Under the pieces are notes generated by a model. The model was not told the DNA's origin, searched no databases, and saw only the letters and a program-made list of their open reading frames with translations. The translations under genes and the position numbers were made by a program. Shown in pieces: positions 33,801-53,495 of a DNA stretch of 64,000 nt (within the stretch, counting starts at the first letter, position 1; the number at the start of each line of letters is the position of its first letter). Source of the stretch: a virus; IMG/VR virus record IMGVR_UViG_3300005841_000034, positions 1-64,000 of that record; one strand, 5' to 3'.

Positions 33801-34764
33801 GTGGCACTAAGTCAAATAGTAAAATACTTTCATTAATAAGTGGATTGGTGTTTGTTTCTACATAATTGTATTGTTTGTCATTATAGAACCGGAACAAATA
33901 AATATCATTGCTAGGTATATTTAATTCAGCTTTGTTAAGAACGGCAATCGTAAAGAAATCACTAAACCCATTCCCCACACTAACGGCTGCCGCAATTTCT
34001 ATTTTTTTTACATTAGGTTTACCCGTTTGTACGACTACGGCTATATCTGCGTTTTTTGTCGGGTCTGCATCATTGGTATTATCAAATGGATTTAATGGTA
34101 ATGGCAATTCACTGTGTTCCCCCCAAGTACTTTTATCATTATCATCAAACCATTCCCTTGCCTTGAATACAAACAGCTTTTTCCGCATGTTGTTGACGGT
34201 AACAGTAGGGTCGTCTTCATAGGATACTATCGGCGGGATGCTTGGGGGTTCTTTTGCCACATCTAAATAAGACCTTTCAATAGTTCCATACCCACCGGAC
34301 AATGCCCGGTCAATATTTATTTTACAGGGTTGGCCTTGACAATTAAGGAAGTAATAAATATCCCCTTGTGTATTGTCGCCATATATTATCCCAACATGAA
34401 TTATTGGGTGCAGCAAATCAAAATTCAAGATATCCCCGCTAGTTCCGGAGTTACTTTTAACTATTCTTTGAATGGTTCCCGTAGAGAGTTGATAAAAATA
34501 TATTCCATGATTTCCGTTGGAATTATAATTGTGATAAATAAGTCGGCCTTTAACTTGATCGTAGTAGTGCCCTATACAAACGTTGGTTCCGTCTGGTAAA
34601 TCAGTATTCGGTATAAGAGTAGTGCCGGGGAGGTTTTCTATCCTCATGTGCGGCGGCGTCCCTCTAAATCTTATGTTCCTAGCATTAGCATGATGAACCG
34701 AAGGAATTATTTCTTCCGGGTCGTCCAAATTCATTATGCCTGCTATTTGTTTTGCTTCTATCAT
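30886..34764 (-). CDS. Tail nozzle / tubular protein B-like, 1292 aa
   Basis: A very large beta-rich protein. The start (IMNLDDPEEIIPSVHHANARNIRFRG, then MRIENLPGTTLIPN) is typical of nozzle or muzzle proteins of Bacteroidota podoviruses. The end holds aromatic strands (WMASAEDTVFSWLNGQLYIHND). It should form the distal tube of the short tail through which DNA leaves. It lies between ring proteins and ejection proteins like T7 gp12, but is about 500 residues longer, so extra domains are inserted. A homing endonuclease gene precedes it (TAATG). Confidence 0.7.
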   Translation of the reverse strand: MIEAKQIAGIMNLDDPEEIIPSVHHANARNIRFRGTPPHMRIENLPGTTLIPNTDLPDGTNVCIGHYYDQVKGRLIYHNYNSNGNHGIYFYQLSTGTIQRIVKSNSGTSGDILNFDLLHPIIHVGIIYGDNTQGDIYYFLNCQGQPCKINIDRALSGGYGTIERSYLDVAKEPPSIPPIVSYEDDPTVTVNNMRKKLFVFKAREWFDDNDKSTWGEHSELPLPLNPFDNTNDADPTKNADIAVVVQTGKPNVKKIEIAAAVSVGNGFSDFFTIAVLNKAELNIPSNDIYLFRFYNDKQYNYVETNTNPLINESILLFDLVPQAAQAQEILNGNTLIYANITEGYPNLTQLTNGTNTTNVASDKIEVNRTNKFFLFIATQGGDTANGSGVVHMVVAGKISQADFFAAYFGATTVSYSAGVGESSANVISGLAASAVSNGFTVISSDNNNLFIIKAATVLDRYNSIQSSTLITDKSSYAVYDWWSNYDFGIEYADEKMRTNGIDTNVQMAVQSNKYEEVSFVLQLPKFTLNIYHRPPLWARSFRIVRTKNLSKSKITQWISDRTIKDASVSSSGVQYAYISIENLNTFVKNNPNSPLTYQFSANDRIRFIKLFNLSLVNPVYTDKDFEIQGQLLNPIINGVQQTGQFIKIILPATSGTFDFGTGFNNYFIELYSPAQPVANGLDAYFEFSERYDIISPGTGNQYHQGQTQNQTSNLVTPATFILTKGDYYFRERKVNTGVEIIYAISPGGGADGNAGRVTLGMTPTSISYNDPNIQTGTSPYNNLIGWSFSNSSRLVLKVVSGNYTFRIQGTLQITFPDDRSDDLYQFLLQRSDGAVIALSPVFDNSKANTYTFLVDTTFTLTTGQFVTPLGFSYPDFDHTRSMATTNLTITSQQFFSQGMIDPNFSDFYPSAVNSNGRQLIHDPNAATVTFPTLLRWGQSYLVDTNINQSNRFYSTDFDTLDRGKGAIKKLKVRDRILRGWQERYCFQMGIYAKFIQDSSGQNTLTTTDSIITSNNVQYYSGEYGVYNRPESIVHGKIQDYFVDPIRGYQLRLSNDGIIPISELYKGQYTIKNLLTPYSKDLLRANGSRSNVLGYYDYFEEEYVCYLQNSTETQANVFGFNEKRNAYSCFYDFTPDWMASAEDTVFSWLNGQLYIHNDEINRNTFYGTTYYSMIDLVFNDKEAIKKTYNNVAYQSNRVWDNNTNFDIVTSMINPQTGIQQYSTLLASDYEIMDNVRYASFLRDKASMQNTQLALVEGDFLTGNWIRVKFRYGISNFAWFFAPYVTWQPNPRNF

Positions 34765-35309
34765 TATAAATATTCCACTAGATATCCCTTAATAGATTTC
34801 CTAGTTCCATTTAAAACATTACCGATAGCACCACTACTTGTGTTAAAGTATTTTGCTGCTGATAATCCCGAATTAAAAGAAATCGTACTATGGTCTTTGA
34901 TTAACACTACAGGTTTCCTAGATTTATGTATTCTTTCTTTGAATAGCCCATTATTAATGGCATGTTCCATATTGTATGAATTATCACACCATTCCAAGTT
35001 TTCAACTCTATTATCGGTTTTAATACCATTGATATGGTTGACTTGGGGATTATTTTGTGTATTTTTAACCCACCCATTAGCTACAATCCTATGAACAACC
35101 AAAGTACGATCTACTCCATTTTTACACAACATAACTGTTAAATAACCCTTTCCGTTGGGAGCACTTTTAAGAATACGGCCTTTTCTCTTTATAGCGCCCT
35201 TCGTAGGATGATTTATTACCCTATCAATACTTCTAATATTACCCATATTAGAAACTTCATAATAGCCTTCGTAATCTTTTATTGTTTTCCATAATTCAAT
35301 CATAACCAT
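34764..35309 (-). CDS. HNH homing endonuclease with NUMOD4 and NUMOD1
   Basis: The N-terminal NUMOD4 region (ELWKTIKDYEGYYEVSNMGNIRS, 5-27) binds DNA. The HNH centre has His73 in VVHRIVANGW and NHINGIKTDNRVENLEW (91-107). A C-terminal NUMOD1-like repeat (SGLSAAKYFNTSSGAIGNVLNG) is the second DNA contact. Free-standing homing endonuclease inserted between a ring and the nozzle gene without disrupting either. It probably spreads to phages lacking it by cutting near this site. Confidence 0.9.
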   Translation of the reverse strand: MVMIELWKTIKDYEGYYEVSNMGNIRSIDRVINHPTKGAIKRKGRILKSAPNGKGYLTVMLCKNGVDRTLVVHRIVANGWVKNTQNNPQVNHINGIKTDNRVENLEWCDNSYNMEHAINNGLFKERIHKSRKPVVLIKDHSTISFNSGLSAAKYFNTSSGAIGNVLNGTRKSIKGYLVEYL

Positions 35310-38492: not shown

Positions 38493-39902
38493 TTAGCTCA
38501 CAAGCCCCCTTAAAAGGGCGAATTGTTCTGCTGCTATTGTACGAGATCCGGGATAACAAATCTGTTCGTATTTGTTAGATGCCTCCGTAGTCTTTGTAGG
38601 CTGCGTATAACCCAAAGACCAGCTATAGATGCGTTGGCCCGCTGTTATATCCGGGTTCTGCTGATATACCCATTGCATGTAGGGGCGTGTGGCATCGCCG
38701 TCTTTGGCATCTACTACAGTACCTTGAGGCACACCTACGCCAAAGTTTGCGCGGTAATCGCCCACAGTAGGCACATAACCAAATACGGCTTGGGCGGTGA
38801 ATCCCTTGTAACGATGAAAGTGGAAATCAAAAGTATCAGTAGAGAAACTTTTGAAGCCATATGATACGGAGGCTTCTGCACTCATACCCACACTGCCATA
38901 GCTGATAGCGCCATTACGGTAGATACCAAACAACAGGTTATTAATATCCTGACGCTGTTTTAAGTCCTGAATGAAATGATATTCACGAGGGCCGCCGTTG
39001 GCATCCAATACATTGGTGAAATTCTGGAAATCACCTATAGCGAACATGGTTGATACATAATCCACCTCCGAACCACGAGCGCCTATATCTGTAAGAATAC
39101 CAACTGTACCGGTAGTTCCAGAAATGTTGGCGTAAGGTACGCCTTCAAATACCGCATCTTCCACGTTCATCATCATGTTGATGTTCATGGTTTGAACGGC
39201 CAAGGCCGGTTCGTAGAATTTGCCGCCGCCGAAATCAATCTGCGTTTTATTCATGGCAGCCAGATCCGAAGATTTGGTGGATGCCCGCAGGACAGTACAA
39301 GTATTGTCGTAGCGGAACATTTTTTGCTGCATTGTGCCTTGCGAATCAGAGCTTTCTCCGGCCAATTGGTTACCAAAGGTTTCCAATCCTTCACCGGCCA
39401 GAATGGACGTTCCTGTTCCAGAACGAACCGTGTAGGCTCCTAAAGGAGTGAGTTCTATTACAAAAGCGCCGGTTGTTCGAGTAATATTTGTAACCTTGTA
39501 TTTTAAGCCGTTAGAACGTACTTTGACGGTTTGATTCAGCAGGAATGGCGATTGTGTGCCCGCTGCGCCATCATTATACGATTGTGGGCTTTTAAGTGTT
39601 ACGCTTATGGCTGCGCCAGAAGCGCCGCTGGCTACAGTATTCAAAACAATACCAGAACCGAACGGACGACCTTTTTCAAAGTGAGAAAAGGTATTGGTGG
39701 TTGTGTTGGTTTCTTCTACTGTAGAGCGGCCTAAAATGTCACTCACTAACATATACGAGCTATTGCCGTATTTGGCGATAATGCCGGGGATATAATCGGG
39801 AATGACGAAGTTGAGTTCATTAAAAATGCCGGTCGTTATCCCTGAAGGATACGCGGCGGGGCCCGGTTGTCCGGTTGCACCCCTAACTATTGCTGATGGC
39901 AT
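38493..39902 (-). CDS. Major capsid protein
   Basis: A 469-residue protein directly after the scaffold gene, with no catalytic motifs and a mixed alpha/beta content fitting the HK97 fold. A glycine- and alanine-rich N-terminus, a helix around FSHFEKGRPFG, an insertion rich in strands, and the ending SRTIAAEQFALLRGLVS are visible. Codons are more regular and G+C-richer than neighbours, as expected for a highly expressed gene. It assembles the head shell. Confidence 0.75.
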   Translation of the reverse strand: MPSAIVRGATGQPGPAAYPSGITTGIFNELNFVIPDYIPGIIAKYGNSSYMLVSDILGRSTVEETNTTTNTFSHFEKGRPFGSGIVLNTVASGASGAAISVTLKSPQSYNDGAAGTQSPFLLNQTVKVRSNGLKYKVTNITRTTGAFVIELTPLGAYTVRSGTGTSILAGEGLETFGNQLAGESSDSQGTMQQKMFRYDNTCTVLRASTKSSDLAAMNKTQIDFGGGKFYEPALAVQTMNINMMMNVEDAVFEGVPYANISGTTGTVGILTDIGARGSEVDYVSTMFAIGDFQNFTNVLDANGGPREYHFIQDLKQRQDINNLLFGIYRNGAISYGSVGMSAEASVSYGFKSFSTDTFDFHFHRYKGFTAQAVFGYVPTVGDYRANFGVGVPQGTVVDAKDGDATRPYMQWVYQQNPDITAGQRIYSWSLGYTQPTKTTEASNKYEQICYPGSRTIAAEQFALLRGLVS

Positions 39903-39930: not shown

Positions 39931-41094
39931 TTATGGGTTTCTTCGTATTCCAGCCGCTGCCATTGCCTTATCCAATTCGGTAGGCTCACCAGATTGAACA
40001 TTCATTTGTCGAACCACGCCACCGGAGTTATCCGGTAACATAGCTTTAATGGTGGCATTTTTACCTTGCTTTATGGCCTCAAGAAGCATTTTATCCTTGT
40101 TTTTGGCAAAATAAATTGCCTCTAAAAAGCCTTTATGATCCGGGGTTCCATCCGGATTTTTGAAGCTGTTAAAAAAGGATTGCTCATCGGTTACCATTGC
40201 TTGCGCCTTCCCAAAACTTTCTGCATCTGGCTCATACTGAAACTCGAAGTTGATTTTATTGGGTTCATCAATAAAAGGGAGTTTAGTTTCCAGTGTTTTA
40301 GGTGTGAAGGACTTGTATATTGCGGCTATTTCGGCATCCCGTTTTGCTTGCTCTGCTTGGAATTGGGTTTGTTGCTCCAACGATTTCTTGTATTGGACAT
40401 ACCCTTCATCTTCAGAAGCTATTTCGGGGAATACGAGTTTACTTTTTGCTGCGGAGAGTTCCGGTTTTGCCAACTTGGCCTCAATTAAGAGTTCCATTTT
40501 TTTATCGTTGGCTAATTCCTCCCATGCAGAAAGGCGCTGGTTGTAATCAGTTTCATCTTCTTCGGCGCTTTGTATGGGCTTGGGAGGAACGGAAAAGGTC
40601 TTTTTAAATTTATAGTCAATTTCTGCCGGGCTAAGGTCTTTATACTTTAGCTGCATCCCTAATTTCACGATATCGGCGGCAGATTCGGGAGTTACATCGG
40701 CATTGAGGTATTGATCAATTTGATGTTCCCTTTGAAGATATTCCCGAACCTCATTAGTTTTACCTTTCTGCCATGCTTCAAACAGCTTCTTACTTTGCTC
40801 ATTCTCAAATTCGTATTCGATGACGGGAGGGGCGGCTTTTAAAGCCCGTAGTTCCTCTATTTCTTTTATGGCATCTTCGTGGCTTTGGTAGCCGAACTTC
40901 TCCTTAATGGGGGTAAAATAGTCTATGGCCTGCGCTTGCTGTGCGGCAGCGGCGGCCGTTTCTTCGGCGGTAGGGGCGGCTGCTTGTTGAGTTTCTGGCA
41001 TTTTGCCACCAAGGGCTATTGCCATCTGTTGCGCGAGTTCGGCAGCCGCATCGGGTTGCTGAACTTCTTGGGTTTCTACGACATTGTCGGCCAT
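39931..41094 (-). CDS. Scaffolding-like protein
   Basis: A 387-residue acidic, highly helical protein with alanine- and glutamine-rich low-complexity start (LAQQMAIALGG, AAAPTAEETAAAAAQQAQ), no hydrophobic core segments and a C-terminus ending ELDKAMAAAGIRRNP. Immediately upstream of the major capsid gene, the usual scaffold position. It should guide head assembly and leave before or during packaging. Confidence 0.7.
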   Translation of the reverse strand: MADNVVETQEVQQPDAAAELAQQMAIALGGKMPETQQAAAPTAEETAAAAAQQAQAIDYFTPIKEKFGYQSHEDAIKEIEELRALKAAPPVIEYEFENEQSKKLFEAWQKGKTNEVREYLQREHQIDQYLNADVTPESAADIVKLGMQLKYKDLSPAEIDYKFKKTFSVPPKPIQSAEEDETDYNQRLSAWEELANDKKMELLIEAKLAKPELSAAKSKLVFPEIASEDEGYVQYKKSLEQQTQFQAEQAKRDAEIAAIYKSFTPKTLETKLPFIDEPNKINFEFQYEPDAESFGKAQAMVTDEQSFFNSFKNPDGTPDHKGFLEAIYFAKNKDKMLLEAIKQGKNATIKAMLPDNSGGVVRQMNVQSGEPTELDKAMAAAGIRRNP

Positions 41095-41187: not shown

Positions 41188-41346
41188 ATGAAAAAACCCA
41201 AAATAGTCAAATTCAGCATTTCTATGAGGCAAGAAACCCAACAGTTGCTTGACCAAATGGCCTTCCAAGAAGGACGCACCAGAAGTAACATAATTGAATA
41301 TTTGTGTAAAAAGGCCATAAAAACAGCGCCTAAGCCATCATCTTAA
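41188..41346 (+). CDS. Ribbon-helix-helix protein antisense to terminase end
   Basis: A 52-residue protein: strand KIVKFSISM, helix RQETQQLLDQMAFQEG and helix TRSNIIEYLCKKAIK, the CopG/Arc layout. It runs opposite to the structural operon, has its own promoter and overlaps the 3' end of the terminase gene by 17 bases. It may be a repressor acting within the late region, for example on the scaffold-capsid or terminase genes. Target unknown. Confidence 0.75.
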   Translation: MKKPKIVKFSISMRQETQQLLDQMAFQEGRTRSNIIEYLCKKAIKTAPKPSS

Positions 41347-43444
41347 TCTTGTATTGTGGAAGTACTTTAGGTTTGATTTCTTGCGATTGGGGTACTTGTG
41401 TTTCACCAAATACCGCCACTAAAGCCATCTGCAATGCCACCCATAAGTCACTTTTGGTACGATCTAAGTGATCATATTCTAACCCCTGCTGCAACAATCC
41501 GATATGTTTAATCCTATGAACATGCCCATTATAAACTTCGTCGCTATCCCCGTCAATATATAATTTACTTATCTGAAGCATTTGACCTAATTGGAAAGGA
41601 TCGCCGCTTCGGCTCCCATATTCCAGTTTAAAGTTTTTCTTTTTAAGTGGGTTGATTAGACCTATGGGTGTCCATGTAAGAAAGGCCTGACATTTTTGAT
41701 TGCAAAAAAACCTATAAAAATCAGTACGCCTATCCACTTCATAGTTCGCTTTGCAGCCATACCAAAGACAGGCTTTCATTACCTCTTCATCGAAATGAAT
41801 ATCTAATCGGGTAGGTGAAATCCATAAGGCAACCGGGTAATTTCCGGTTTCAATTCCATCAACTATTAACGATTTTTTAAAAACTACTATAGCAGGGTTA
41901 GAGCCATTAACCGCTATTCGATCTTGAGTTGTATCCACTCCTATCTGATACAACATTGTATTTTTGGGCTCTAAATAACCTCCTCGATCTTCAAATTTAT
42001 TTGGATTAATCGGAGTTTCTAATATAAACCAACCACCCTTTTCGTCATCCATCATCCTCGCTTCTTTTATCTCTTTTGCCTTTTTCCCGATTACTACCGA
42101 TGGAATAGTTTTCTTTTTAAGATTAAGGCGGCATTGTCTCCAAAATGGTGGATCGTCTTCTAAATCTTGAATCTGATTCGTAATATTTTGCGCATTGTAT
42201 TCACATCTATCATTACCAGCATAAAAAGCCTCTTTAATTGTTCTGGCTTCTTTACGAATACGAGCGGCTAAGGAACGCTGATTATGCTTTACAGTTTCCC
42301 TGTCGGCTAAAATTTCTTTTATTGTTTTTTCAACATTTGGATCTCCATATTTATCGAAATTTTTAGCTCTGTCTGCGGTCATAAAAAACCTGTATAAACC
42401 ACTGGCCGTTCTTCCATTCTCCCCTTTATTTAACTGATCGCTATCATTCCAAAGTCTAATCGCCGCCTCTTGAACGCCCTCTTTTTCAGTATCCAACACT
42501 TCTACAGTAGATGTGTATAATACTTTACCGATTATTCGACCCTCATCATCCATTAAACAATAACGGGTAACTTCATGCCGATCATATATATTACACTCTA
42601 CAGTTTTAGCCCACTCATCGTCGAGTTTTCTATGTATTTTTTGACCGTCAGTAGCAAGGGCTTCCGCACTATAAAAATCTATCAAGGAACCAAGTTCCTC
42701 CTTTTCTAAATTTTCTTCCGCTTTCTTGCCTCTTATATTTGTATTTTGGAACCGTAATTCAGACTTAGGTGTTACGCCTCCCGATAAATCATATTCAGGC
42801 TTAAAAAATCTCGGCCATTTTTTAAACGGGTCTACTACTGCTTTGGCAAAAACCTTTTTGGCATCCGCTCCTGTTTTAGATTGAATTGTGCCATTTGTCA
42901 TTTTTGTCCTTGTAGGATAGTCTAAGACAAAAACTCCCCCTCTGAATGTTTTACCAAAACGACGTTTGGTTATTTCCAACATTCCAAGACATTCGGGATC
43001 TTCTATGACATATTGCAGAAAATAAAAATATTCCAAATCGGGTTCTCTATAATTCGGATACCCTATATCTATTTGCGTATGTTGCATGAATAGATAATGG
43101 GGGCCAACCAAATAAACAGGCTTGCCCTTTTTCATGTACCAAAATCCATGTAATCGTCTATCCCATTCTTGTTGCTTATATTCTTCGTATTTCTTATTGA
43201 AGAAGGGTTCGGAATCGTCCTTTTTTCTTTTATTATAAATATCTTCTTCTTTGAGAACATCAAAATACCAAGCGGGAGGCTTGATTCGTTCCCAATATTG
43301 TTCCAATGGATTATCAGATCTGGAATACACTCCCACCTCTCGTAGCTCTTTTGTTACAACATCCACGACAAAACCAACAGGTGGGATGTGGCAATCTAAC
43401 CCCTGAATATTAACTGTAGAACCTCCTTTTATTGGTAGAAACAT
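41330..43444 (-). CDS. Terminase large subunit
   Basis: A 704-residue packaging motor. The ATPase part holds a modified Walker A, EITKRRFGKTFRG (K165, T166), and an acidic Walker B-like LDDEW (274-278). The nuclease part has the RNase H-type acids D504 (YQIGVDTTQD), D571 (YEVDRR) and D666 (KSDLWVAL). It pumps DNA into the head and cuts it at headful or specific sites. It lies between the portal block and the scaffold gene, so packaging and head genes are co-transcribed. Confidence 0.85.
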   Translation of the reverse strand: MFLPIKGGSTVNIQGLDCHIPPVGFVVDVVTKELREVGVYSRSDNPLEQYWERIKPPAWYFDVLKEEDIYNKRKKDDSEPFFNKKYEEYKQQEWDRRLHGFWYMKKGKPVYLVGPHYLFMQHTQIDIGYPNYREPDLEYFYFLQYVIEDPECLGMLEITKRRFGKTFRGGVFVLDYPTRTKMTNGTIQSKTGADAKKVFAKAVVDPFKKWPRFFKPEYDLSGGVTPKSELRFQNTNIRGKKAEENLEKEELGSLIDFYSAEALATDGQKIHRKLDDEWAKTVECNIYDRHEVTRYCLMDDEGRIIGKVLYTSTVEVLDTEKEGVQEAAIRLWNDSDQLNKGENGRTASGLYRFFMTADRAKNFDKYGDPNVEKTIKEILADRETVKHNQRSLAARIRKEARTIKEAFYAGNDRCEYNAQNITNQIQDLEDDPPFWRQCRLNLKKKTIPSVVIGKKAKEIKEARMMDDEKGGWFILETPINPNKFEDRGGYLEPKNTMLYQIGVDTTQDRIAVNGSNPAIVVFKKSLIVDGIETGNYPVALWISPTRLDIHFDEEVMKACLWYGCKANYEVDRRTDFYRFFCNQKCQAFLTWTPIGLINPLKKKNFKLEYGSRSGDPFQLGQMLQISKLYIDGDSDEVYNGHVHRIKHIGLLQQGLEYDHLDRTKSDLWVALQMALVAVFGETQVPQSQEIKPKVLPQYKIKMMA

Positions 43445-43446
43445 AT

Positions 43447-43794
43447 TTAGGACATATTTTTCCCCGCTGTATTACCTATGTTTTCGGCTATGCTCTCTGG
43501 TGTGGTAATTCTGCGATTTATTTTAACATCCTTTTCTTCATCCCCCGAAATTCCAATTGAATCTCCTAACGCCTTCACCGCTGCTGATATACTGGAACTG
43601 TCATTCCAGATTACCTTAAGACGTTCAAAGGTCTTATCTTTGGGGTCTTCAAGATTCAGGTTTTTTAGATTGGTAGCATTTAAGATATCGGCCATTTCCC
43701 ATGACTTTCTATTAAGAGCATAGTAAAGTTTCGCAGGCCCATTTTCTTCGTACCGCTTTATAATATCTTCACATTCTTCAATCGTTCTTGCCAT
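43447..43794 (-). CDS. Possible small terminase subunit
   Basis: A 115-residue helical protein starting MARTIEECEDIIKRYEENGPAKLYYALNRKSWEMADIL. It lies directly upstream of TerL and downstream of the portal with 2-3 base gaps, where a small terminase or packaging cofactor might be. No helix-turn-helix is certain, so this is inferred from position. Confidence 0.5.
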   Translation of the reverse strand: MARTIEECEDIIKRYEENGPAKLYYALNRKSWEMADILNATNLKNLNLEDPKDKTFERLKVIWNDSSSISAAVKALGDSIGISGDEEKDVKINRRITTPESIAENIGNTAGKNMS

Positions 43795-43797
43795 GTT

Positions 43798-46290
43798 TTA
43801 TTGCATTTGTGGTTGTTCGGCTTGTTGCTCTTGAGGGTTTTCCATTCCTTGTTCTTGCTGCTGTTCTGCCATTTGTTGTTGCTGGGCTTCCATCATTTCC
43901 TGCTGCTGATTCATGGCTATATTCTTTTGCATTTCCTGATTCTCTACCGTTAGAGGAATGGTAATATTAGGTATTAGCTGTTGTATAACAGGCAGCGCAA
44001 TATCAGGTGATATAACACCTTTTCCTATGGCTTGCCACAGGCCATTAACCGTTGCCAATTCTTTATCTTTTGTCGCCTTAAAATCAAGCATTTCTTTTTC
44101 GGCGGCTAGTTTTTCTTTCTGCAATTCAGCTTCTTGTTGTTGGGCCTGCATGGCTGATTGCTGTTGTAATTCGGCATTTTGCTGTTGGAGACGTTGACTT
44201 TCCTCTATTGCGCGCTGCCGGTTCTTTTTGAAGGTAGAATCAAGATATAAGCAGGCTAGTTTATAGTTGTCGATATTTCGGAGCATGATAGCATCCTTAA
44301 TGGTAAGGGAGGGATTGCCTTGTGCATCCGGCATTTGGCTATAACGTTGTATATCCTGTTCTAATAGTTCCTTTTCATATTCGGTGGATTTGGTTTTGAT
44401 AGCTACCTTAAACCGGGTATTAAGCATGTCTTCTTGGGATTCCGGTTCTTTTTTTACTACATCATTCCAGTGCAGGAGACATATTTTATAGAAGGTATCT
44501 TCCCATCCTTTGTTGTTTCCTACAACTATGAAGTCAGTTACATTATAGGAACTTTCGTTTTGGCCCTCTGCCAGTTTGCCGGAAGTACGATCACCCACAT
44601 CGCTACCATCCCGGTACATTGGAACGCCAACCAATTGACGTATCTCATTTACGATTTGTAGCATCACGTTGGTACAGCCTACAATCTTTTCTATGGATTC
44701 ATCCCGGACGGTATTGCTTAATGGCGGCGCTTCTCGTTGAAGTGGATCAAGACCCTTGCTACTCCATATTTCATTACCTGTTTGGTTGTAGATCCTTACC
44801 ACTTCTTCCCATGCTACGGTATCTCCAGTACCTAAATCAATATTGCGGGCTGATTCCACATCAATACGGATGCCACTTGGTTTTAATAAAGCGATCAATT
44901 GCTTACGTTTCATCTTTACCAACTGGTATTCCCGTAAACACTCCATCATGCGTTCTCCCAATGATGGCATATATTCTCCGTCATTTCCGGGGATTACTAC
45001 TGTATAAGAAGACAGGGGCCTTGAAACATTGGTATATGGCGTAATAATCAAATCTGGTGGCCCCCAATAAAGCAGCGTATCACCATAAGGAGCATATACC
45101 CCACGCATCCATGTATTTTTCTTACGCTTTATTATTTCTGTGTCATCAGGTTTGGGTTGCTCTATAACTGTTCCGTCCTTTTTGGTTTGTTGATACGGGA
45201 TGTTCTTTTTTTGTTCGTAGTTTTTCTTCCCAAAGGCATCCGTTTTTTCAACGTAATACATATCCTCCCCGCAATCTATTTCAGCATCGAGTAATAGGAT
45301 GCAACAATCATCATAGGGTCGATTGTAATTATATGGCATTAGCGACCAATTCTCATTCCACATATAATTAAATGTGCCAATGTTTTTATTGGTGGACATT
45401 TTAGCCAGTTCAAAGATTTGCTTTTCCGTGAGGCCATCGGGTTTATATTCACTCTTGCCATATTTCGCCCGAAAGTCCCGCACCTTTACGCTGATAAACT
45501 CCCCGATTTGGTCTATCTCTGCTTCTCCGGTATCATTCATGAAGAAGTTATAAACCATATTTGTAGGGATACATTTTCTTACTGAATATTCACCGGGGGC
45601 AAGACATTCTATTTTAGTGCAGAAAAAGTTGAGCGCAGCCAAATCGAAGATGGTTTTCCGGTTCATGACGGATTCGAAGCTGATATCATCCTTTAACTTT
45701 TCGATTATTTTTTCAAACCGTATTTCTTTGGGTAGGCGGTCTTCTAATTCAAAATAAACCTGCGCAGACAATTCATCATCGGGGACATAGGCGTTAGGGG
45801 GTTCTAATTGTATTCCTGCTGCCTGTTGGGTTTGGTTAATCGTTTCTACATCGTGCATCCTGAAAAGCGCATCGTGCAATCTTTCTCGTTTTTCATTTAT
45901 CGAATCTGCGTCAATGGCATTTACACAAGCGTAGGTTTTACTTTTTGACATTGATTCCACTAATGTACCCATGAATTGAGCCGCAATACGGGAAGGGGTG
46001 GTATCTATATTTACCCATGCTTTATTGGCATCTGAAACCGATAAGTAGTCTAAGAATTCGTTCATCTTCTGACTACCCTTCATCCATAGCAAAATTTCAA
46101 TCCATCGTTGGGAGCGCAGCCGGAAGAAATTAAGGCTCGTATCGTTTGAGTACTGTGTACGATAAAATTGCTGCATTATTAGCTTCCCTTTTTCTTTGGA
46201 AGCCTTTTCTTCGGGCGACATAAAAAACCTTGCTAATAAAGGATCTGATGGCAGAGATGCCGGGCTATAAGAAGGGATGTTATCGGCCAT
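43798..46290 (-). CDS. Portal protein
   Basis: 830 residues with the pattern of portals from crAss-like and related phages: a helical N-terminal region (RLRSQRWIEILLWMKGS), a central beta/alpha core (DTTPSRIAAQFMGTLVE, NFFCTKIECLAPGEYSVR), and the stem region near MECLREYQLVKMKRKQLIALLKPSG. A very glutamine-rich coiled coil (about 690-740) and a Q/E/M-rich tail (about 790-830) end the protein. Twelve copies should form the DNA entrance. First gene of the structural block after the chaperonins. Confidence 0.8.
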   Translation of the reverse strand: MADNIPSYSPASLPSDPLLARFFMSPEEKASKEKGKLIMQQFYRTQYSNDTSLNFFRLRSQRWIEILLWMKGSQKMNEFLDYLSVSDANKAWVNIDTTPSRIAAQFMGTLVESMSKSKTYACVNAIDADSINEKRERLHDALFRMHDVETINQTQQAAGIQLEPPNAYVPDDELSAQVYFELEDRLPKEIRFEKIIEKLKDDISFESVMNRKTIFDLAALNFFCTKIECLAPGEYSVRKCIPTNMVYNFFMNDTGEAEIDQIGEFISVKVRDFRAKYGKSEYKPDGLTEKQIFELAKMSTNKNIGTFNYMWNENWSLMPYNYNRPYDDCCILLLDAEIDCGEDMYYVEKTDAFGKKNYEQKKNIPYQQTKKDGTVIEQPKPDDTEIIKRKKNTWMRGVYAPYGDTLLYWGPPDLIITPYTNVSRPLSSYTVVIPGNDGEYMPSLGERMMECLREYQLVKMKRKQLIALLKPSGIRIDVESARNIDLGTGDTVAWEEVVRIYNQTGNEIWSSKGLDPLQREAPPLSNTVRDESIEKIVGCTNVMLQIVNEIRQLVGVPMYRDGSDVGDRTSGKLAEGQNESSYNVTDFIVVGNNKGWEDTFYKICLLHWNDVVKKEPESQEDMLNTRFKVAIKTKSTEYEKELLEQDIQRYSQMPDAQGNPSLTIKDAIMLRNIDNYKLACLYLDSTFKKNRQRAIEESQRLQQQNAELQQQSAMQAQQQEAELQKEKLAAEKEMLDFKATKDKELATVNGLWQAIGKGVISPDIALPVIQQLIPNITIPLTVENQEMQKNIAMNQQQEMMEAQQQQMAEQQQEQGMENPQEQQAEQPQMQ

Positions 46291-46321: not shown

Positions 46322-46864
46322 TTACTTTACAAAGCCTACAATGAAGTCAGAATGCACTTTTGTAACTCTGGTTTCCACGCCGTTATAATTATATACTATA
46401 TCGTACCCGGCGTTGGGCTTATGGAATATTAATTGCCCCGGTTGATACGGCTGTGTGCCTGCGTCTATGACTTTTGCCCGATCAATATACGTTTTACGAT
46501 ATTCTATCGGTACAGGTAATGGGGTAGGAATTTCTACCCGTTCGCAAATGATATTCCCGCACATGGGTTTTATTTTGCCCCCTTCAGTTAAAACCCCAAA
46601 TACTGTTTGGTTAAAAGGAACGCTAAAAAGATCGTCTTGAAGGAAATATGGTGAGGGGGCGTAAAAATGATTATGGTGGAAAATAGCTATCTGGCCCGGC
46701 TTAATGACACGATTCCCTTCCACTATCAAGGCAACGACCGGTGATCGCTCCCTATAGTTCGTTTCAAACTTCAGGGCAGTTGAAACGGTAATACCCCCGA
46801 TTGAGAATGTGTCCTTTTGACGCATATCAACCCTAACCAAGATTCGTTCATTAACTGGAATCAT
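46322..46864 (-). CDS. Tandem GroES-like double co-chaperonin
   Basis: The 180-residue sequence divides into two GroES-like halves. Half one (1-95) has NERILVRVD, a GGITVS turn before a mobile-loop-like segment, VVALIVEGN, IKPGQIAIFHHN and FNQTVFGVL, in the same order as GroES. Half two (100-180) has GNIICERVEI, AKVIDAG, YQPGQLIFHK and SDFIVGFV. A chain with two barrels could cap a heptameric GroEL differently, or act as an adaptor. It overlaps the GroES gene by 4 bases. The fold is inferred by comparison and has not been shown. Confidence 0.65.
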   Translation of the reverse strand: MIPVNERILVRVDMRQKDTFSIGGITVSTALKFETNYRERSPVVALIVEGNRVIKPGQIAIFHHNHFYAPSPYFLQDDLFSVPFNQTVFGVLTEGGKIKPMCGNIICERVEIPTPLPVPIEYRKTYIDRAKVIDAGTQPYQPGQLIFHKPNAGYDIVYNYNGVETRVTKVHSDFIVGFVK

Positions 46865-47130
46865 ACAATACCAATTATGTGCCCCGCATCCAAAACAAGA
46901 TAGGTTTGCCCTTCATATTCTATTTCCTGTCCTGTTCCTTTATGAAACAGGGCTTTCTTCCCCTTGCTGCGCTTGATTTCCGGATCTTTAACCAAACCAC
47001 CCACGCCATAAACAACGCCTGTATGGGGCTTTTCCCGCCCGCTGCCGGGGATGAACAACTTACTAGCTGTTTCGGTTTCGGTTTTATCCCGGATTACAAA
47101 GACTGAATTGTTAACTACTTTTATGGGCAT
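46861..47130 (-). CDS. groES: GroES-like co-chaperonin
   Basis: An 89-residue single-barrel co-chaperonin: NSVFVIRDKTETETASKLFIPGSGREK with the mobile loop around 17-32, GVVYGVGG, KKALFHKGTG and YLVLDAGHIIGIV in family order. It should close the GroEL cage. Translationally coupled to the double-barrel protein and 13 bases after the GroEL gene. Confidence 0.85.
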   Translation of the reverse strand: MPIKVVNNSVFVIRDKTETETASKLFIPGSGREKPHTGVVYGVGGLVKDPEIKRSKGKKALFHKGTGQEIEYEGQTYLVLDAGHIIGIV

Positions 47131-47143
47131 ATCGTATTGATTA

Positions 47144-48745
47144 TTAGGCCACTGCCTCTATTAAGCATTCGGAAATTATCAGCATACCCGCAATGGAAGC
47201 CGCATTTATCAAAGCGCAGCGGAGAGCTTTGGTGGAATCAATAATGCCGGATTCTACTAGGTCTTCTATTTTAGCAGTTTTGGTATTGTAACCGTAATTG
47301 CCTTCTACTTTCAAAACCTGTTGCTGGATTAAGTCCGGTTCTACGCCACTATTTTGAGCCATTTGCCGTAAAGGAGCAAGCAGTATTGTGTGGATTAATC
47401 GTTGCCCCTTATCAAAATCATTAGCAACCATTTCTGCCCAAAGTTTCTGACCTATACGGGTGAAAGCCGTGCCGCCGCCTGCCACAAAACCTTCGGCGAT
47501 AGCCGCCTTTGTTGAACGTACAGCATCATCAAATCGATCAAGTTTTTCCTTCATTTCCGTCTCCGTGGCAGCCCCTACCTGAATAACTGCCACGCCGCCT
47601 GTCAATTTGGCAATACGCTTTTCAATGGGGAAACGCTCTTCTTCATTTTTGGCCTGCGCTAAATTCATCCTAAGCTCATTCAGGAGGTTTTCCAGCCCTT
47701 CGCCGTCATGGATACCTCCAATAATGATCGTTTCCTCTTTGCTTACTATACACTTTCTGGCCTGCCCTAAATTCTCCAATTCAATTTCCTTGATATCAAC
47801 CCCTCTTATATCGCTTACATAAGTACCCCCCGTTAAAAGGGCTAAATCTTCCATTTCTATACGGCGTTCTTCACGGAAGGCGGGGGCCTTCGTCACACAT
47901 ACCCGGATAGCCTTATTGTGGTTATTTATTGCCAAAAATGCTAGTCCTTCTCCTTCAGCATCTTCACAGACAATAAGGAGGGGGCGACCATTGGCGTTTG
48001 CCAGTTCTACGGCCCGTTTCACTTGGGTATGATGGGTTATCCGGCTTTGGTACAGCAGGATAAGGGGGTCTTCAAATTCGCATACTTGCTTATCGGGTTT
48101 ATTGACGAAAAATGGACTTATCCAATTATCATAAGTCCATTTATAGCCGTCGGCTATCTTGATCTCTGTTTTGACACTTTTACCGGCCTCAATGTCTATA
48201 ATTCCTTCAGGGCCAATCTTTTTGAAAGCGTCTGCGATAAGACGGCCTATAGCGGGATCATTGTTGGCGCTCACACTGGCTACTTGGAATATCTTATCGT
48301 TATCGTCCCCAATGATAATAGACATTTCTTTTAATTCAGCCACAGCTTTTTCTACGGCGCTATCGATCCCCTTTTTTACCTCTTGGGAGTTAGCGCCCTC
48401 ATTGACGAGTTGCATCCCCCCGGAAACAATAGCTTCGGCCAATACACAGGTGCAGGTGGTAGCATCCCCCGCTGCTTCTACGGTACGAAAGGCTGCTTCC
48501 TTTATCAATAAGGCTCCCCGATTCTCAATGGGATCAGTCAGCGAAAAATGCTTGGTTACCGTGAAACCATCTTTTGTAATGATTGTTGGAAGTTGCCGGA
48601 TAAATCCATCCTGATAGATTGCCTCGCCGATTAAAACGCATTTTCCTGACCCACCCATAGTAACACGAACCGCGTCAGTTATTTTTTTAACCCCTACTAG
48701 TATCCTTTGCCTTGCTTCATTTGAAAATAAAACGGTCTTATCCAT
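47144..48745 (-). CDS. groEL: GroEL chaperonin
   Basis: A complete 533-residue group I chaperonin subunit. The ATPase aspartates corresponding to E. coli D52, D87 and D398 are kept: D59 in TKDGFTV, D94 in AGDATTCT, D406/407 in RFDDAVRST. AGGG lies at 422-425. Apical-domain contacts are aromatic (W208, F212, F213). Departures include GDATTC for GDGTTT, MGGSG for LGPKG, a short insertion near 43-52, and no C-terminal GGM tail. It should fold a phage protein, perhaps capsid or portal, in ATP cycles with the two co-chaperonins. Confidence 0.95.
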   Translation of the reverse strand: MDKTVLFSNEARQRILVGVKKITDAVRVTMGGSGKCVLIGEAIYQDGFIRQLPTIITKDGFTVTKHFSLTDPIENRGALLIKEAAFRTVEAAGDATTCTCVLAEAIVSGGMQLVNEGANSQEVKKGIDSAVEKAVAELKEMSIIIGDDNDKIFQVASVSANNDPAIGRLIADAFKKIGPEGIIDIEAGKSVKTEIKIADGYKWTYDNWISPFFVNKPDKQVCEFEDPLILLYQSRITHHTQVKRAVELANANGRPLLIVCEDAEGEGLAFLAINNHNKAIRVCVTKAPAFREERRIEMEDLALLTGGTYVSDIRGVDIKEIELENLGQARKCIVSKEETIIIGGIHDGEGLENLLNELRMNLAQAKNEEERFPIEKRIAKLTGGVAVIQVGAATETEMKEKLDRFDDAVRSTKAAIAEGFVAGGGTAFTRIGQKLWAEMVANDFDKGQRLIHTILLAPLRQMAQNSGVEPDLIQQQVLKVEGNYGYNTKTAKIEDLVESGIIDSTKALRCALINAASIAGMLIISECLIEAVA

Positions 48746-48747
48746 AA

Positions 48748-49362
48748 TTATATATATTTAAACGAGTACCCTCCTGTATGATTTCTGCTCCCTAAGCAAA
48801 CTTTGTTGATTGACCTCCTAGATAATTTCATTTTTTGGGCCGCCTCTGCTATTGATTTATAATTTACGCCCGTTTCCAAACATATTATCTTTTTAGAAGT
48901 CTGCCCAATGAAATTCTTTTTCCAATTATCGGATGGGGTTTTTCCTAAAACCCGATATGAATGTAATTCATCCTCAGATCTTGTAGCCCACTCAAGCATA
49001 AAATACCGATTATCAGATCTATCTCCTAATAAATGGTTAACATGGGGCTTTAATTCAATATTGGGAATAAAGGCAGCCGCCACTAATCGATGAGCCTGAA
49101 AGGATTTCATCTTAGAATTTTTGCTTAAAGTAAGACGTATATATCTGTGAGATATTCGCCCTTTTTTTATCTGTAATTTACGTTTAACTATAAGGCCCTT
49201 CTTTGATTCCCAAGTTTTGGGCATACTTCTACAACGACCAAAACTGCTAATCTCATACAGGCCTTCATATCCTTTAATCAGCCGCCACTCTTCCGTATGA
49301 ACCACCCCGTCAATTTCCTCAATAATGTTTTCCAGTGATAGGTTTTTATAATGTTCGGCCAT
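48748..49362 (-). CDS. HNH homing endonuclease (NUMOD4/NUMOD1)
   Basis: NUMOD4 (about 26-50, EEWRLIKGYEGLYEISSFGRCRS), HNH core (AHRLVAAAFIPN, HVNHLLGDRSDNRYFMLEW) and a NUMOD1-like C-terminus (KSIAEAAQKMKLSRRSINKVCLG) are in the usual order. It sits 2 bases from the GroEL gene and 3 from the next, so it has inserted cleanly into the operon. It is only distantly similar to the copy at 34764. Confidence 0.85.
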   Translation of the reverse strand: MAEHYKNLSLENIIEEIDGVVHTEEWRLIKGYEGLYEISSFGRCRSMPKTWESKKGLIVKRKLQIKKGRISHRYIRLTLSKNSKMKSFQAHRLVAAAFIPNIELKPHVNHLLGDRSDNRYFMLEWATRSEDELHSYRVLGKTPSDNWKKNFIGQTSKKIICLETGVNYKSIAEAAQKMKLSRRSINKVCLGSRNHTGGYSFKYI

Positions 49363-50153: not shown

Positions 50154-51005
50154 TTATAAAGGCTGCTCCTTGTGGGCGGCTTTTATTTTGCCTATATATT
50201 CGTCTAGATCTCCATACAACTTATGGAAATAGTACTCTAATCCGGCCTGCGCTAAAAAATCATACCGATCTTCTCCAATAGGAATACAGTTGGGGGCATA
50301 GGTGCAAACCTCCAATATTGAAGGATGCATTAACCCGGTAGAAATTTGATTCGCCATCGTTTGATTGGTGATATGAAACCGGCTCTGCTTTATGGCTTGC
50401 GCAAGGGTGAGAAAGTTATCTACGGTTAACTTTTTGATGTTTAAATCAAACTGCATGCAGAAATTGTTGTATTCCCGCATGGTTCCGGAAAATATAAGAT
50501 TGTCTTCATAGGGTTTTAGAAATGAATAGTCTATGCTTTCGTTTCTATAACGTTCTGTGCGAGTAATAATTACTTTCCCTTTTGCTAAGTCTTTGTCGCT
50601 GTCCGGAACAGTCAACCACGGCTTAGACAGATCACAAGCCAAATCAGGAAATACATAAAAATACCAACGATTAATCGACAGTCCGGGCATCCCTACATTT
50701 GTTTCCCTTATTGAATCCAAATCACAACCTATTTCTTCATCTACCCATGTTTTCACATCTTCCAAAAATGGCTGCGATTTTAACAGAGGGGTCAGCATAT
50801 CAACCATTTGCTGATTAAGCATCACATTTTTACCTTCAGTTTTGACTGGATGTACGGCCCCTTCATAATAAAACGCTTCTACATCTTTTCGCAAAAATAG
50901 GGTAGGCTTAATCCCTGTTTTTCTGTAAAATTCTTTCATGGAAGGCAATGCGGCCAATGTGTCGCCACTATTTCCACTTGAAAGAAATGAACTATTAATT
51001 GTCAT
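50154..51005 (-). CDS. GT-B-type glycosyltransferase-like protein
   Basis: A 283-residue protein with SSGNSGDTLAALPSMKEF near the N-terminus, the glycine-rich loop of heptosyltransferase-like (GT9-like) enzymes. A C-terminal region NQTMANQISTGLMHPSILEV corresponds to the nucleotide-sugar site, where a short helix holds the donor. It may transfer a sugar within the four-gene glycan cassette. Overlaps the upstream glycosyltransferase gene by 11 bases. Confidence 0.65.
   Translation of the reverse strand: MTINSSFLSSGNSGDTLAALPSMKEFYRKTGIKPTLFLRKDVEAFYYEGAVHPVKTEGKNVMLNQQMVDMLTPLLKSQPFLEDVKTWVDEEIGCDLDSIRETNVGMPGLSINRWYFYVFPDLACDLSKPWLTVPDSDKDLAKGKVIITRTERYRNESIDYSFLKPYEDNLIFSGTMREYNNFCMQFDLNIKKLTVDNFLTLAQAIKQSRFHITNQTMANQISTGLMHPSILEVCTYAPNCIPIGEDRYDFLAQAGLEYYFHKLYGDLDEYIGKIKAAHKEQPL
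50157..50192 (+). terminator. Terminator for the gene at 49876
   Basis: AAAGGCTGC and GCGGCTTTT pair with one bulged G across TCCTTGTGG, followed by TTATTTT. It lies inside the 3' end of the convergent minus-strand gene. Confidence 0.55.
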
Positions 51006-52023
51006 CTTTTATTTTTTGATGTTCTGGTAATGAGTTATACAGTTGTTCGATTTGGTTCTTTTTAAATTCATACACATCATTCATTTCCGTTCCTTTCATG
51101 TCTAAATAAGAGGAACCCGCCCATATATGTTTAAACCCATTTTCCATTAGGGTGTACTCTTGCTGTTGGTCTTCTCTATTGTGTAACCACTTTATTTCTG
51201 TAGGAATTTCAAATATCTTATAGCCCATTGCTTTCTGCCACCATGCCAGCCATTGCCCCGGCTCTGCGCCAATCCTTTTAATGATTTTCCATTTATTATC
51301 TAATAGGACATTACCGACTTCGCTTTCCATTGTGCGCTGTCCGTAGGTGTGGATTGATTCATTATTCTTTCCCATTCCATTATGAAATGGGCCCACAACA
51401 GGAGAATAATGCGCAGCTTTTTTTTCTGCTAATTGAGGATAATAAGGCTTATATCCATCAGCCAATTCAATGAAATCTTCCGGTTCGGCCAATACTTCGT
51501 TGATAATTGACTTATGAACCATAGTGTGACAGGCGAACCCTTCCGACATAGCCATATTAGGGAAATAGAAATACTCCAAACTCCGGCAATACTTCCATGC
51601 TTCCATCCATATACTACGTTTGTATAAAGCTCCGGCAGGATGAATATATGTGCCTCCCGAAAGTTTAAGAAGAGAGCCGGCACAATCATACCCTTCATTA
51701 ATCAATCGCACATAATAGTCTAGCCAATTAACGTCTGTAGGAAACGAATCTGATTCTGCCGTTATTACCCATTCTGTCTCTGCAACTTCCATTCCCATAT
51801 CAAGGGCTATACCGTGAGAAGATATTTTATCAGAAAAATTTGGTAAAACTTGCTTTAATTGATCCCGATAAGGCAATAGCTCATTTATACTTGAATCAGG
51901 AAATGAATTGTCAATTATGACAATATCAACAAAATGTTTCCTTTTGCATTTAAGAAATTGGGATACGGCATACGCTGTTGCTTTACCGTTTTTATAGTGA
52001 GGTATAAGTATAGTTATGCGCAT
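50995..52023 (-). CDS. GT2-family glycosyltransferase
   Basis: A 342-residue GT-A fold: ITILIPHYKNGKATAYAV at the start, DIVIIDNSFPD as the nucleotide-binding strand, and ESDSFPT (about 111-117) as the DxD-type metal site. A C-terminal helical part of unknown role follows. Predicted to transfer a nucleotide-activated sugar. Part of a four-gene cassette that could glycosylate virion proteins, phage DNA-linked bases or host surface glycans. Confidence 0.8.
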   Translation of the reverse strand: MRITILIPHYKNGKATAYAVSQFLKCKRKHFVDIVIIDNSFPDSSINELLPYRDQLKQVLPNFSDKISSHGIALDMGMEVAETEWVITAESDSFPTDVNWLDYYVRLINEGYDCAGSLLKLSGGTYIHPAGALYKRSIWMEAWKYCRSLEYFYFPNMAMSEGFACHTMVHKSIINEVLAEPEDFIELADGYKPYYPQLAEKKAAHYSPVVGPFHNGMGKNNESIHTYGQRTMESEVGNVLLDNKWKIIKRIGAEPGQWLAWWQKAMGYKIFEIPTEIKWLHNREDQQQEYTLMENGFKHIWAGSSYLDMKGTEMNDVYEFKKNQIEQLYNSLPEHQKIKDDN

Positions 52024-52026
52024 GAT

Positions 52027-52848
52027 TTATTTTTTTCCTAAAAACATAGGTGATGCTTGGTACTCAATCAATAAAGAGCTTTCAAGGCGTTCCTTTTCAA
52101 ATTCCGGATTTTCAAAAACGTATTTCATCAATAAATTTAAATCTCCTTCAAGAAATGCCCTGTAAAAATCTCCCTTCTTTTCTAATCTCTCTGTAAACGA
52201 ATCGTAATTATCACGAGCGAACGCCAGCCACCCACTATCAGTAAATCCCTGTTGTTCCGGGAAGTCGATTAATTTTTTGTAGTTGTGAAAGTAGCAACAT
52301 TCTTTTGCAAAGTCGTAACATCGAGCTTTTAGTAAATCGTTGTTATCCTTCGGAAGATCGGCCATAGTGAAAAGGGGACGATGAAAAGGACGGAACAGAT
52401 CTTCGGGCCCACACTGTTCATGTATATTACCAGCCCAATGTAATTCTGATTTTCGGTTGAGGCGATACCAATGATGTCGATCCTCCAAATGATCAAAGTA
52501 AAAAGTATTGCATTCGCTATTAGCTTGTACTATTTCGACTACCTTTTCTTTACCCTTAGAAATTATCTCACTGCAATTCATGTATATATTCCAATCATTG
52601 CTAGAGTGGCTTATCATATCATTAAGAATAGCAGAAAACCCGTTTTTGAAAATATAGTTAAAAGGGTACTGTACTATTTTTAAATTAAAGTCATTTTGGT
52701 AGGAATAAATAAGCCTTCGATCTTCCTCAAATAGACAAAGATCTCCAAAAATAATTTCATCTGCAACGCCTTCAAATGATTTGAAAGTCTCTTTCAAGGC
52801 AAGCGGATTCCCTTGTGCCATCGTAACCAAACTTATTCCCGTCTTCAT
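52027..52848 (-). CDS. GT2-like protein with altered metal site
   Basis: A 273-residue protein with SLVTMAQGNPLALKETFKSFEGVADEIIFGD, like the opening of GT-A enzymes acting on glycans. The expected DxD is replaced by MNCSEI (about 91-96), so the metal site is degenerate and activity is doubtful or changed. It overlaps the methyltransferase gene by 4 bases. Confidence 0.65.
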   Translation of the reverse strand: MKTGISLVTMAQGNPLALKETFKSFEGVADEIIFGDLCLFEEDRRLIYSYQNDFNLKIVQYPFNYIFKNGFSAILNDMISHSSNDWNIYMNCSEIISKGKEKVVEIVQANSECNTFYFDHLEDRHHWYRLNRKSELHWAGNIHEQCGPEDLFRPFHRPLFTMADLPKDNNDLLKARCYDFAKECCYFHNYKKLIDFPEQQGFTDSGWLAFARDNYDSFTERLEKKGDFYRAFLEGDLNLLMKYVFENPEFEKERLESSLLIEYQASPMFLGKK

Positions 52849-53495
52849 CTAGTCAGTTTTTGATAGTGGCTTACATAATTTGAAAATCTTTGTCGGGGAA
52901 AAAACCCATGTGTGCAAAGTAAAACGTCAAGGCCATGCAAACTAAATATGGTACTGTGTCCGGCGTCGGGATTCACATAAAACCAATCATCAATAGTGTG
53001 CCCGTCTTCAATAGCTGCGTCGATTATGCCTGTTTCAATCATTAACCGGCCCCCATTGACCAGTGATTTCCATATAACATCCAGTTCGATATAGTTTGCT
53101 GATAAGTGTTCTATCGTTTCTACCATTGTAACGATATGATACATCTCCTTAGCGGGAAGTTGACAATATTTTTCATTGTAGGCGTCAAATCCATCAACAT
53201 GGACATAGCCAGCTTCTTTGAGGTCGTTTATTAACAGTCCATTGCCACAGCCAAAATCTAAAATCCTTACTTCTTGCTTCGGGATTCCAAAAGTCATTTT
53301 ATTGATCCGATCTATACGGAGATAGTTTTGTCTTTCATTTCTTTCCACTTCGTGTTCGCCGCCTACAAGGCCATCTTGATCCAACACCCCCGCATAAAGA
53401 GAATGACAGTTGCTACATTCATAGTATTCTGTTATTCCTTTTGTAAGGCGAAGGGACGACCCATTGAAGCATATCGGGCAATAGTGATCGCTCAT
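52845..53495 (-). CDS. SAM-dependent methyltransferase with zinc ribbon
   Basis: A zinc ribbon (CPIC at 6-9 and CSNC at 27-30) precedes a class I methyltransferase core: motif I ILDFGCGNGLLINDL (about 78-92), motif II DGFDAY, and METIEHL as a conserved post-motif. This layout fits enzymes that modify sugars or small molecules (Methyltransf_12/23-like), not DNA. Together with three glycosyltransferase-like genes it suggests methyl-capped glycan synthesis. Confidence 0.8.
   Translation of the reverse strand: MSDHYCPICFNGSSLRLTKGITEYYECSNCHSLYAGVLDQDGLVGGEHEVERNERQNYLRIDRINKMTFGIPKQEVRILDFGCGNGLLINDLKEAGYVHVDGFDAYNEKYCQLPAKEMYHIVTMVETIEHLSANYIELDVIWKSLVNGGRLMIETGIIDAAIEDGHTIDDWFYVNPDAGHSTIFSLHGLDVLLCTHGFFPRQRFSNYVSHYQKLTR

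Follow-up and report, generated by a model that had tools for sequence, protein, structure and literature searches.

Phage T4 gp31 is the classic case of a phage co-chaperonin for a capsid protein. gp31 and CocO of phage RB49 share the GroES fold with the co-chaperonins described here and serve capsid protein folding, a role that we only propose for the latter. They differ in consisting of one domain and in using the host GroEL, phage GroEL being absent. GroEL and GroES proteins of phages are already known, from EL, OBP, AR9, the viruses behind the soil and marine viral chaperonins, and Panino. The giant-phage chaperonins EL gp146, OBP gp246, and AR9 gp228 were described as co-chaperonin-independent (PMC9598537). 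This description sets them apart from the locus studied here, where two co-chaperonins are encoded beside GroEL, which speaks against independence. Vibrio phage Va1, a phage of another type, is an earlier case of a GroEL gene among structural genes; its GroEL lies between the tail sheath and tail tube genes, and no adjacent co-chaperonin is annotated.

Mixed rings, in which co-chaperonins of one and of two domains add up to seven GroES domains, are described for green algae and plants (PMC5780408, citing Tsai 2012), and tandem-domain co-chaperonins were called chloroplast-specific in the same review. The chloroplast Cpn60/Cpn10/Cpn20 system likewise combines a GroEL-type chamber with both kinds of co-chaperonin. 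In contrast, the phage genes lie beside a portal gene, and one GroEL type is present instead of alpha/beta mixtures. Flavobacterial phages (Elemovirus, Callevirus phi38:1/Calle, and Maribacter phage Panino) and MW202828 carry GroEL, a one-domain GroES, and a tandem protein of 180-195 aa upstream of the large terminase (TerL) and portal genes. Unlike in the present locus, their three genes are not adjacent, and the tandem protein is annotated as GroES/cpn10 or as hypothetical. Our literature search turned up no account of a two-domain GroES of phages, of its link with the packaging module, or of its constant pairing with a one-domain partner; earlier notice is possible.

Gene layout and properties of GroEL and GroES

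The window, that is, the whole stretch of 64,000 nucleotides that was analyzed, comes from a virus record of 74,033 bases (IMGVR_UViG_3300005841_000034) and belongs to a virus of Bacteroidota-type bacteria. The chaperonin set and the structural genes that follow it are listed in Table 1.

Table 1. Chaperonin genes and adjoining structural genes, in window coordinates
Feature	Position	Strand	Basis
GroEL, group I chaperonin, 533 aa, 58 kDa	47144..48745	-	PF00118, phrog_5725, end-to-end alignment with solved GroELs
GroES, single-domain co-chaperonin, 89 aa, mobile loop TASKLFIPGSGREKP	46861..47130	-	PF00166; PDB co-chaperonin matches
ES2, predicted tandem-domain GroES-fold co-chaperonin, 180 aa	46322..46864	-	AF2 model, Foldseek/VIA-align, hhalign
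Portal, 830 aa, 96 kDa	43798..46290	-	phrog_6547, 1.2e-29
115-aa protein between portal and TerL	43447..43794	-	Similar gene there in several relatives
Large terminase (TerL), 704 aa, 82 kDa	41330..43444	-	phrog_6681, 3.7e-60
Putative scaffold, 387 aa, acidic, pI 4.8	39931..41094	-	Place in the order, after TerL and before the capsid candidate; pI
Major capsid protein candidate, 469 aa, 50.4 kDa	38493..39902	-	phrog_13704 'virion structural protein', 4.9e-18

A 13-bp gap separates GroEL from GroES, GroES and ES2 overlap by 4 bp (ATGA), and 31 bp lie between ES2 and the portal gene. On the same strand, the order downstream of ES2 is portal, TerL, scaffold-like gene, and capsid candidate. A sequence-only reading of this DNA had reported a GroEL of 533 aa and a GroES of 89 aa here, in a coupled operon that runs into portal, terminase, scaffold, and capsid genes. 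The coordinates and lengths were exact, and the spacing and the PHROGs matches agree with the operon; the scaffold is placed by position. The family search gave no match for the putative scaffold, and its name comes from its location. The Bacteroidota-type promoter motif gave 7 matches against 4 expected by chance, none of them immediately before GroEL.

An HNH endonuclease gene with NUMOD motifs (48748-49362, minus strand) separates GroEL from a conserved 91-aa gene. In three relatives (L005, L006, and L009), the 91-aa gene precedes GroEL and no related endonuclease stands between them, so the HNH gene looks like a homing-endonuclease insertion. A second HNH homologue (29% identical) was found within the downstream structural module (34764-35309, minus strand), and the relative L097 has one between the capsid candidate and the next gene (16584-17198). 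Upstream of the chaperonin set, at 50154-53495 on the minus strand, are probable glycosyltransferase and methyltransferase genes, as judged from sequence.

GroEL matched PF00118 (1.3e-48, 166 bits) and phrog_5725 (4.5e-128). Its residues 3-530 aligned with solved GroEL chains (E 7e-126), and the equatorial, intermediate, and apical domains were all covered. Asp59, Asp94, and Asp407 were invariant in 15 relatives; they correspond to the ATP-site aspartates D52, D87, and D398 of E. coli GroEL. Helix H of the apical domain, which contributes to the groove for co-chaperonin and substrate, reads HHTQ in most clade members in place of the usual sequence. This indicates that the partner specificity of the window-clade GroEL has probably changed. 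GroES matched PF00166 (6.1e-14, 52.3 bits against a cut-off of 21.1) and nine PDB co-chaperonin sequences at E<0.001. Its mobile loop contains LFIP in the window; most relatives have a hydrophobic motif there that likewise ends in P.

Conservation of the set and origin of GroEL

The IMG/VR data were scanned with the portal alignment alone, the chaperonins not being used as bait. The scan gave 16 contigs, two of which start at or just before the portal gene, leaving 14 that are informative. GroEL, GroES, ES2, and portal were found in the same order and orientation in 14/14, including six contigs that the GroEL and ES2 scans had missed. Since the trio is kept in every informative relative, it is not a chance grouping. 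The TerL proteins of these relatives are 26-67% identical to that of the window, yet the trio is retained. Some relatives have the 115-aa gene; in others it is missing or has diverged strongly. Identity of the capsid candidate is 98.9% in L100 and 67-84% in the remaining relatives.

Pairwise omega was 0.04-0.13 for GroEL and 0.05-0.14 for GroES; for ES2, it was 0.10, from the one pair unsaturated at silent sites. On these sequence comparisons, purifying selection acts on all three genes, strongly on GroEL. The sequence-only reading had proposed looking for the trio next to portal genes in phage and metagenome data, and had named an inactive or non-conserved GroEL as what would speak against it. 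The trio did recur beside the portal gene, GroEL was conserved throughout the 14 contigs, and the retained catalytic residues together with the purifying selection suggest an active protein.

The cassette may be read as acquired cargo, an auxiliary host-type chaperonin that boosts general folding and stands before the portal gene incidentally. GroEL is widespread, with relatives in 533 viral contigs in our scan, and in related phages it sits in other modules. In Calle_1 and elemo, GroEL-GroES lie outside the structural operon, and in Calle_1 they are among DNA-polymerase/replication genes, which also counts against a strictly virion-directed role. The earlier placement of the set in a structural operon holds for the window clade. 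Against the cargo reading, gene order is fixed in the window clade, and the window GroELs form a fully supported phage-only clade in the tree, far from host GroELs. The identity of the window GroEL is about 40% to bacterial GroELs (40-43% to those of Bacteroidota) and 35% to the elemo GroEL. On the Bacteroidota identity and the phage-only clade, a recent host origin of GroEL was rejected, and we consider acquired cargo improbable. The AU test did not separate a single from a multiple origin of GroEL among the tandem-lid phages (p 0.47).

Predicted fold of ES2 and the tandem gene in other phages

ES2 had been called a second GroES-like protein. Structure and profile comparisons support this description, which missed the two-domain nature of the protein and had no basis in Pfam or PHROGs. 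ES2 had no Pfam match, and its best PHROGs match was phrog_19266 at E 0.07. A tblastn search of 50,697 phage records gave no match, and among PDB sequences the ES2 profile found only unrelated matches. The link was established through synteny, profile-profile comparison, and structure.

The AF2 model of ES2, built from its own relatives, had a pLDDT of 83 and a pTM of 0.77. Its best PDB match was Chlamydomonas Cpn20 (7ekq_R), with a Foldseek E of 1.4e-4 over both halves and a VIA-align Z of 9.6 over 145 residues; ordinary GroES chains ranked next. In a comparison with predicted viral proteins, the highest-ranking match with a name was a 200-aa cpn10 of Cellulophaga phage phi18:3. The model of the MW202828-like branch (pLDDT 75) again had 7ekq_R first, with Z 10.7 over 164 residues. 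T4 gp31 was among the structural matches of both AlphaFold models (1g31, Z 5.3 against the window ES2 model). ES2 is thus predicted to consist of two consecutive GroES folds. Compared with Cpn20, it has about 16% sequence identity and an additional HHN...DDLF region, and its domain fusion probably arose independently of that of Cpn20.

The hhalign comparison of ES2 with the isolate tandem co-chaperonins gave a probability of 97.5 (E 5.5e-12), and that with the MW202828-like branch gave 88.9 (E 2.4e-6). The two ES2 halves gave probabilities of 10 and 3 against ordinary GroES, which is weak, though above column-shuffled controls. Because sequence profiles link window-clade ES2 to ordinary GroES weakly, the case for homology is made by the fold, by synteny, and by the tandem proteins of the isolates. 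The isolate proteins belong to phrog_13932, 'co-chaperonin GroES' (200 aa), to which profile-profile comparison links the window ES2 although hmmscan misses it. By sequence, window-clade ES2 had no Cpn10 match, whereas the C-terminal half of the Callevirus/Baltivirus proteins passed the PF00166 cut-off.

Domain 1 of ES2 comprises about residues 1-95 and domain 2 about residues 96-180. The loop of domain 1 (IGGITV) has the form G-G-I-x-hydrophobic, resembles the GroES mobile loop, and was modelled at low confidence. That of domain 2 (LPVP) is hydrophobic-x-hydrophobic-P in most members and resembles the loop in the one-domain GroES of the same phages. After a strand of domain 1, the motif HHN (H63-N65; 46670-46678, minus strand) is invariant in the window clade and in the MW202828-like branch; it is followed by a length-variable loop and, in most members, by DDLF. 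The HHN may possibly be a metal site or a contact with the lid or TerL.

With the tandem protein of MW202828 as one query, 540 IMG/VR stretches were found. In the fetched MW202828-like loci with room for it, TerL lay 0.3-0.9 kb downstream on the same strand (79/79). In MW202828-like contigs longer than 56 kb, GroEL and a one-domain GroES were also present (6/6). All three proteins occur in Elemovirus, Panino, MW202828, Calle_1, and phi38:1, where the genes are usually scattered. In elemo, Panino, MW202828, Calle_1, phi38:1, phi18:3, and phi19:3, TerL either adjoins the tandem gene or is separated from it by one gene, even where GroEL was not found. The data indicate that, of the three proteins, the tandem co-chaperonin alone stays with the TerL/portal module across these phages. 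For a gene beside TerL that is sometimes annotated as hypothetical, the predicted two-domain fold points to a likely function. In every complete isolate checked, a one-domain GroES accompanies the tandem protein. The complete genomes of the Baltivirus phages phi18:3 and phi19:3 (L094/L095) encode both co-chaperonins and gave no GroEL match, so these phages presumably place two phage lids on the host chaperonin.

These observations bear on the view that ES2 is a GroES-fold assembly factor or adaptor for the TerL/portal packaging machine, and that GroEL and GroES fold proteins without it. We consider this rather unlikely, and it keeps that much weight because the ES2 gene tracks TerL rather than GroEL; the invariant HHN, moreover, has no role in a lid model. 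On the other hand, both ES2 domains retain GroES-type hydrophobic loops, the low model confidence of the domain 1 loop is as expected for a mobile loop, and a one-domain GroES always occurs as well. For phi18:3, detection by MS/MS proteomics is noted for the portal and tail proteins and not for the tandem protein, an absence that counts weakly against the packaging view.

Possible lids and client of the phage chaperonin

We believe that the trio is probably a phage-dedicated group I chaperonin with one- and two-domain lid subunits. As read from its sequence, GroEL would be the ATPase folding chamber. On the models, GroES would act as a normal one-domain co-chaperonin and ES2 as a two-domain co-chaperonin of Cpn20 architecture; the lid function of ES2 is what we infer from this. 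GroES and ES2 may co-assemble into a seven-domain lid, e.g., three ES2 plus one GroES, and this lid would sit on the seven-fold GroEL to give a cage matched to phage proteins. Since helix H is rewritten, binding of the GroES and ES2 lids to GroEL is not guaranteed.

Alternatively, GroES rings and ES2 rings (e.g., eight-domain tetramers) could form two separate homo-oligomeric lids that alternate on GroEL and give cages of different size, as with T4 gp31 versus GroES. In vitro, Cpn20 can act by itself, and in E. coli PfCpn20 substitutes for GroES although the symmetries do not match (PMC5780408; PMC3542282). The gp31 matches of both ES2 models also suit separate lids. The steady co-occurrence of one- and two-domain proteins is equally predicted by a mixed ring. 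We think that separate rings, unlikely in themselves, are a close rival to the mixed ring, and that the mixed ring is the likelier of the two. We favor the mixed ring because both kinds of subunit are encoded by the phages, and jointly so in all complete isolates examined; our assignment of it, drawn from this comparison, is tentative.

The GroEL cage has a size limit: a protein of ~50 kDa fits, and proteins of 82-96 kDa do not. As the portal and TerL proteins are too large for an ordinary cage, the capsid protein of roughly 50 kDa, made later in the same operon, would be the likeliest client; we give this assignment an even chance of being correct. Taken as a whole, it is conceivable, if somewhat doubtful, that a chloroplast-like mixed lid evolved in phages and cages their capsid protein, conserved in a large Bacteroidota-phage-related group with the tandem lid fixed in the packaging module.

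The tandem architecture is kept in hundreds of phage contigs, and this offers simple, cultivable systems such as Cellulophaga phi38:1 and the Flavobacterium elemo phages. It opens the questions of how a seven-fold chamber can be fitted with even-numbered lid subunits, and of why a phage would bring its own chaperonin system or borrow that of its host.
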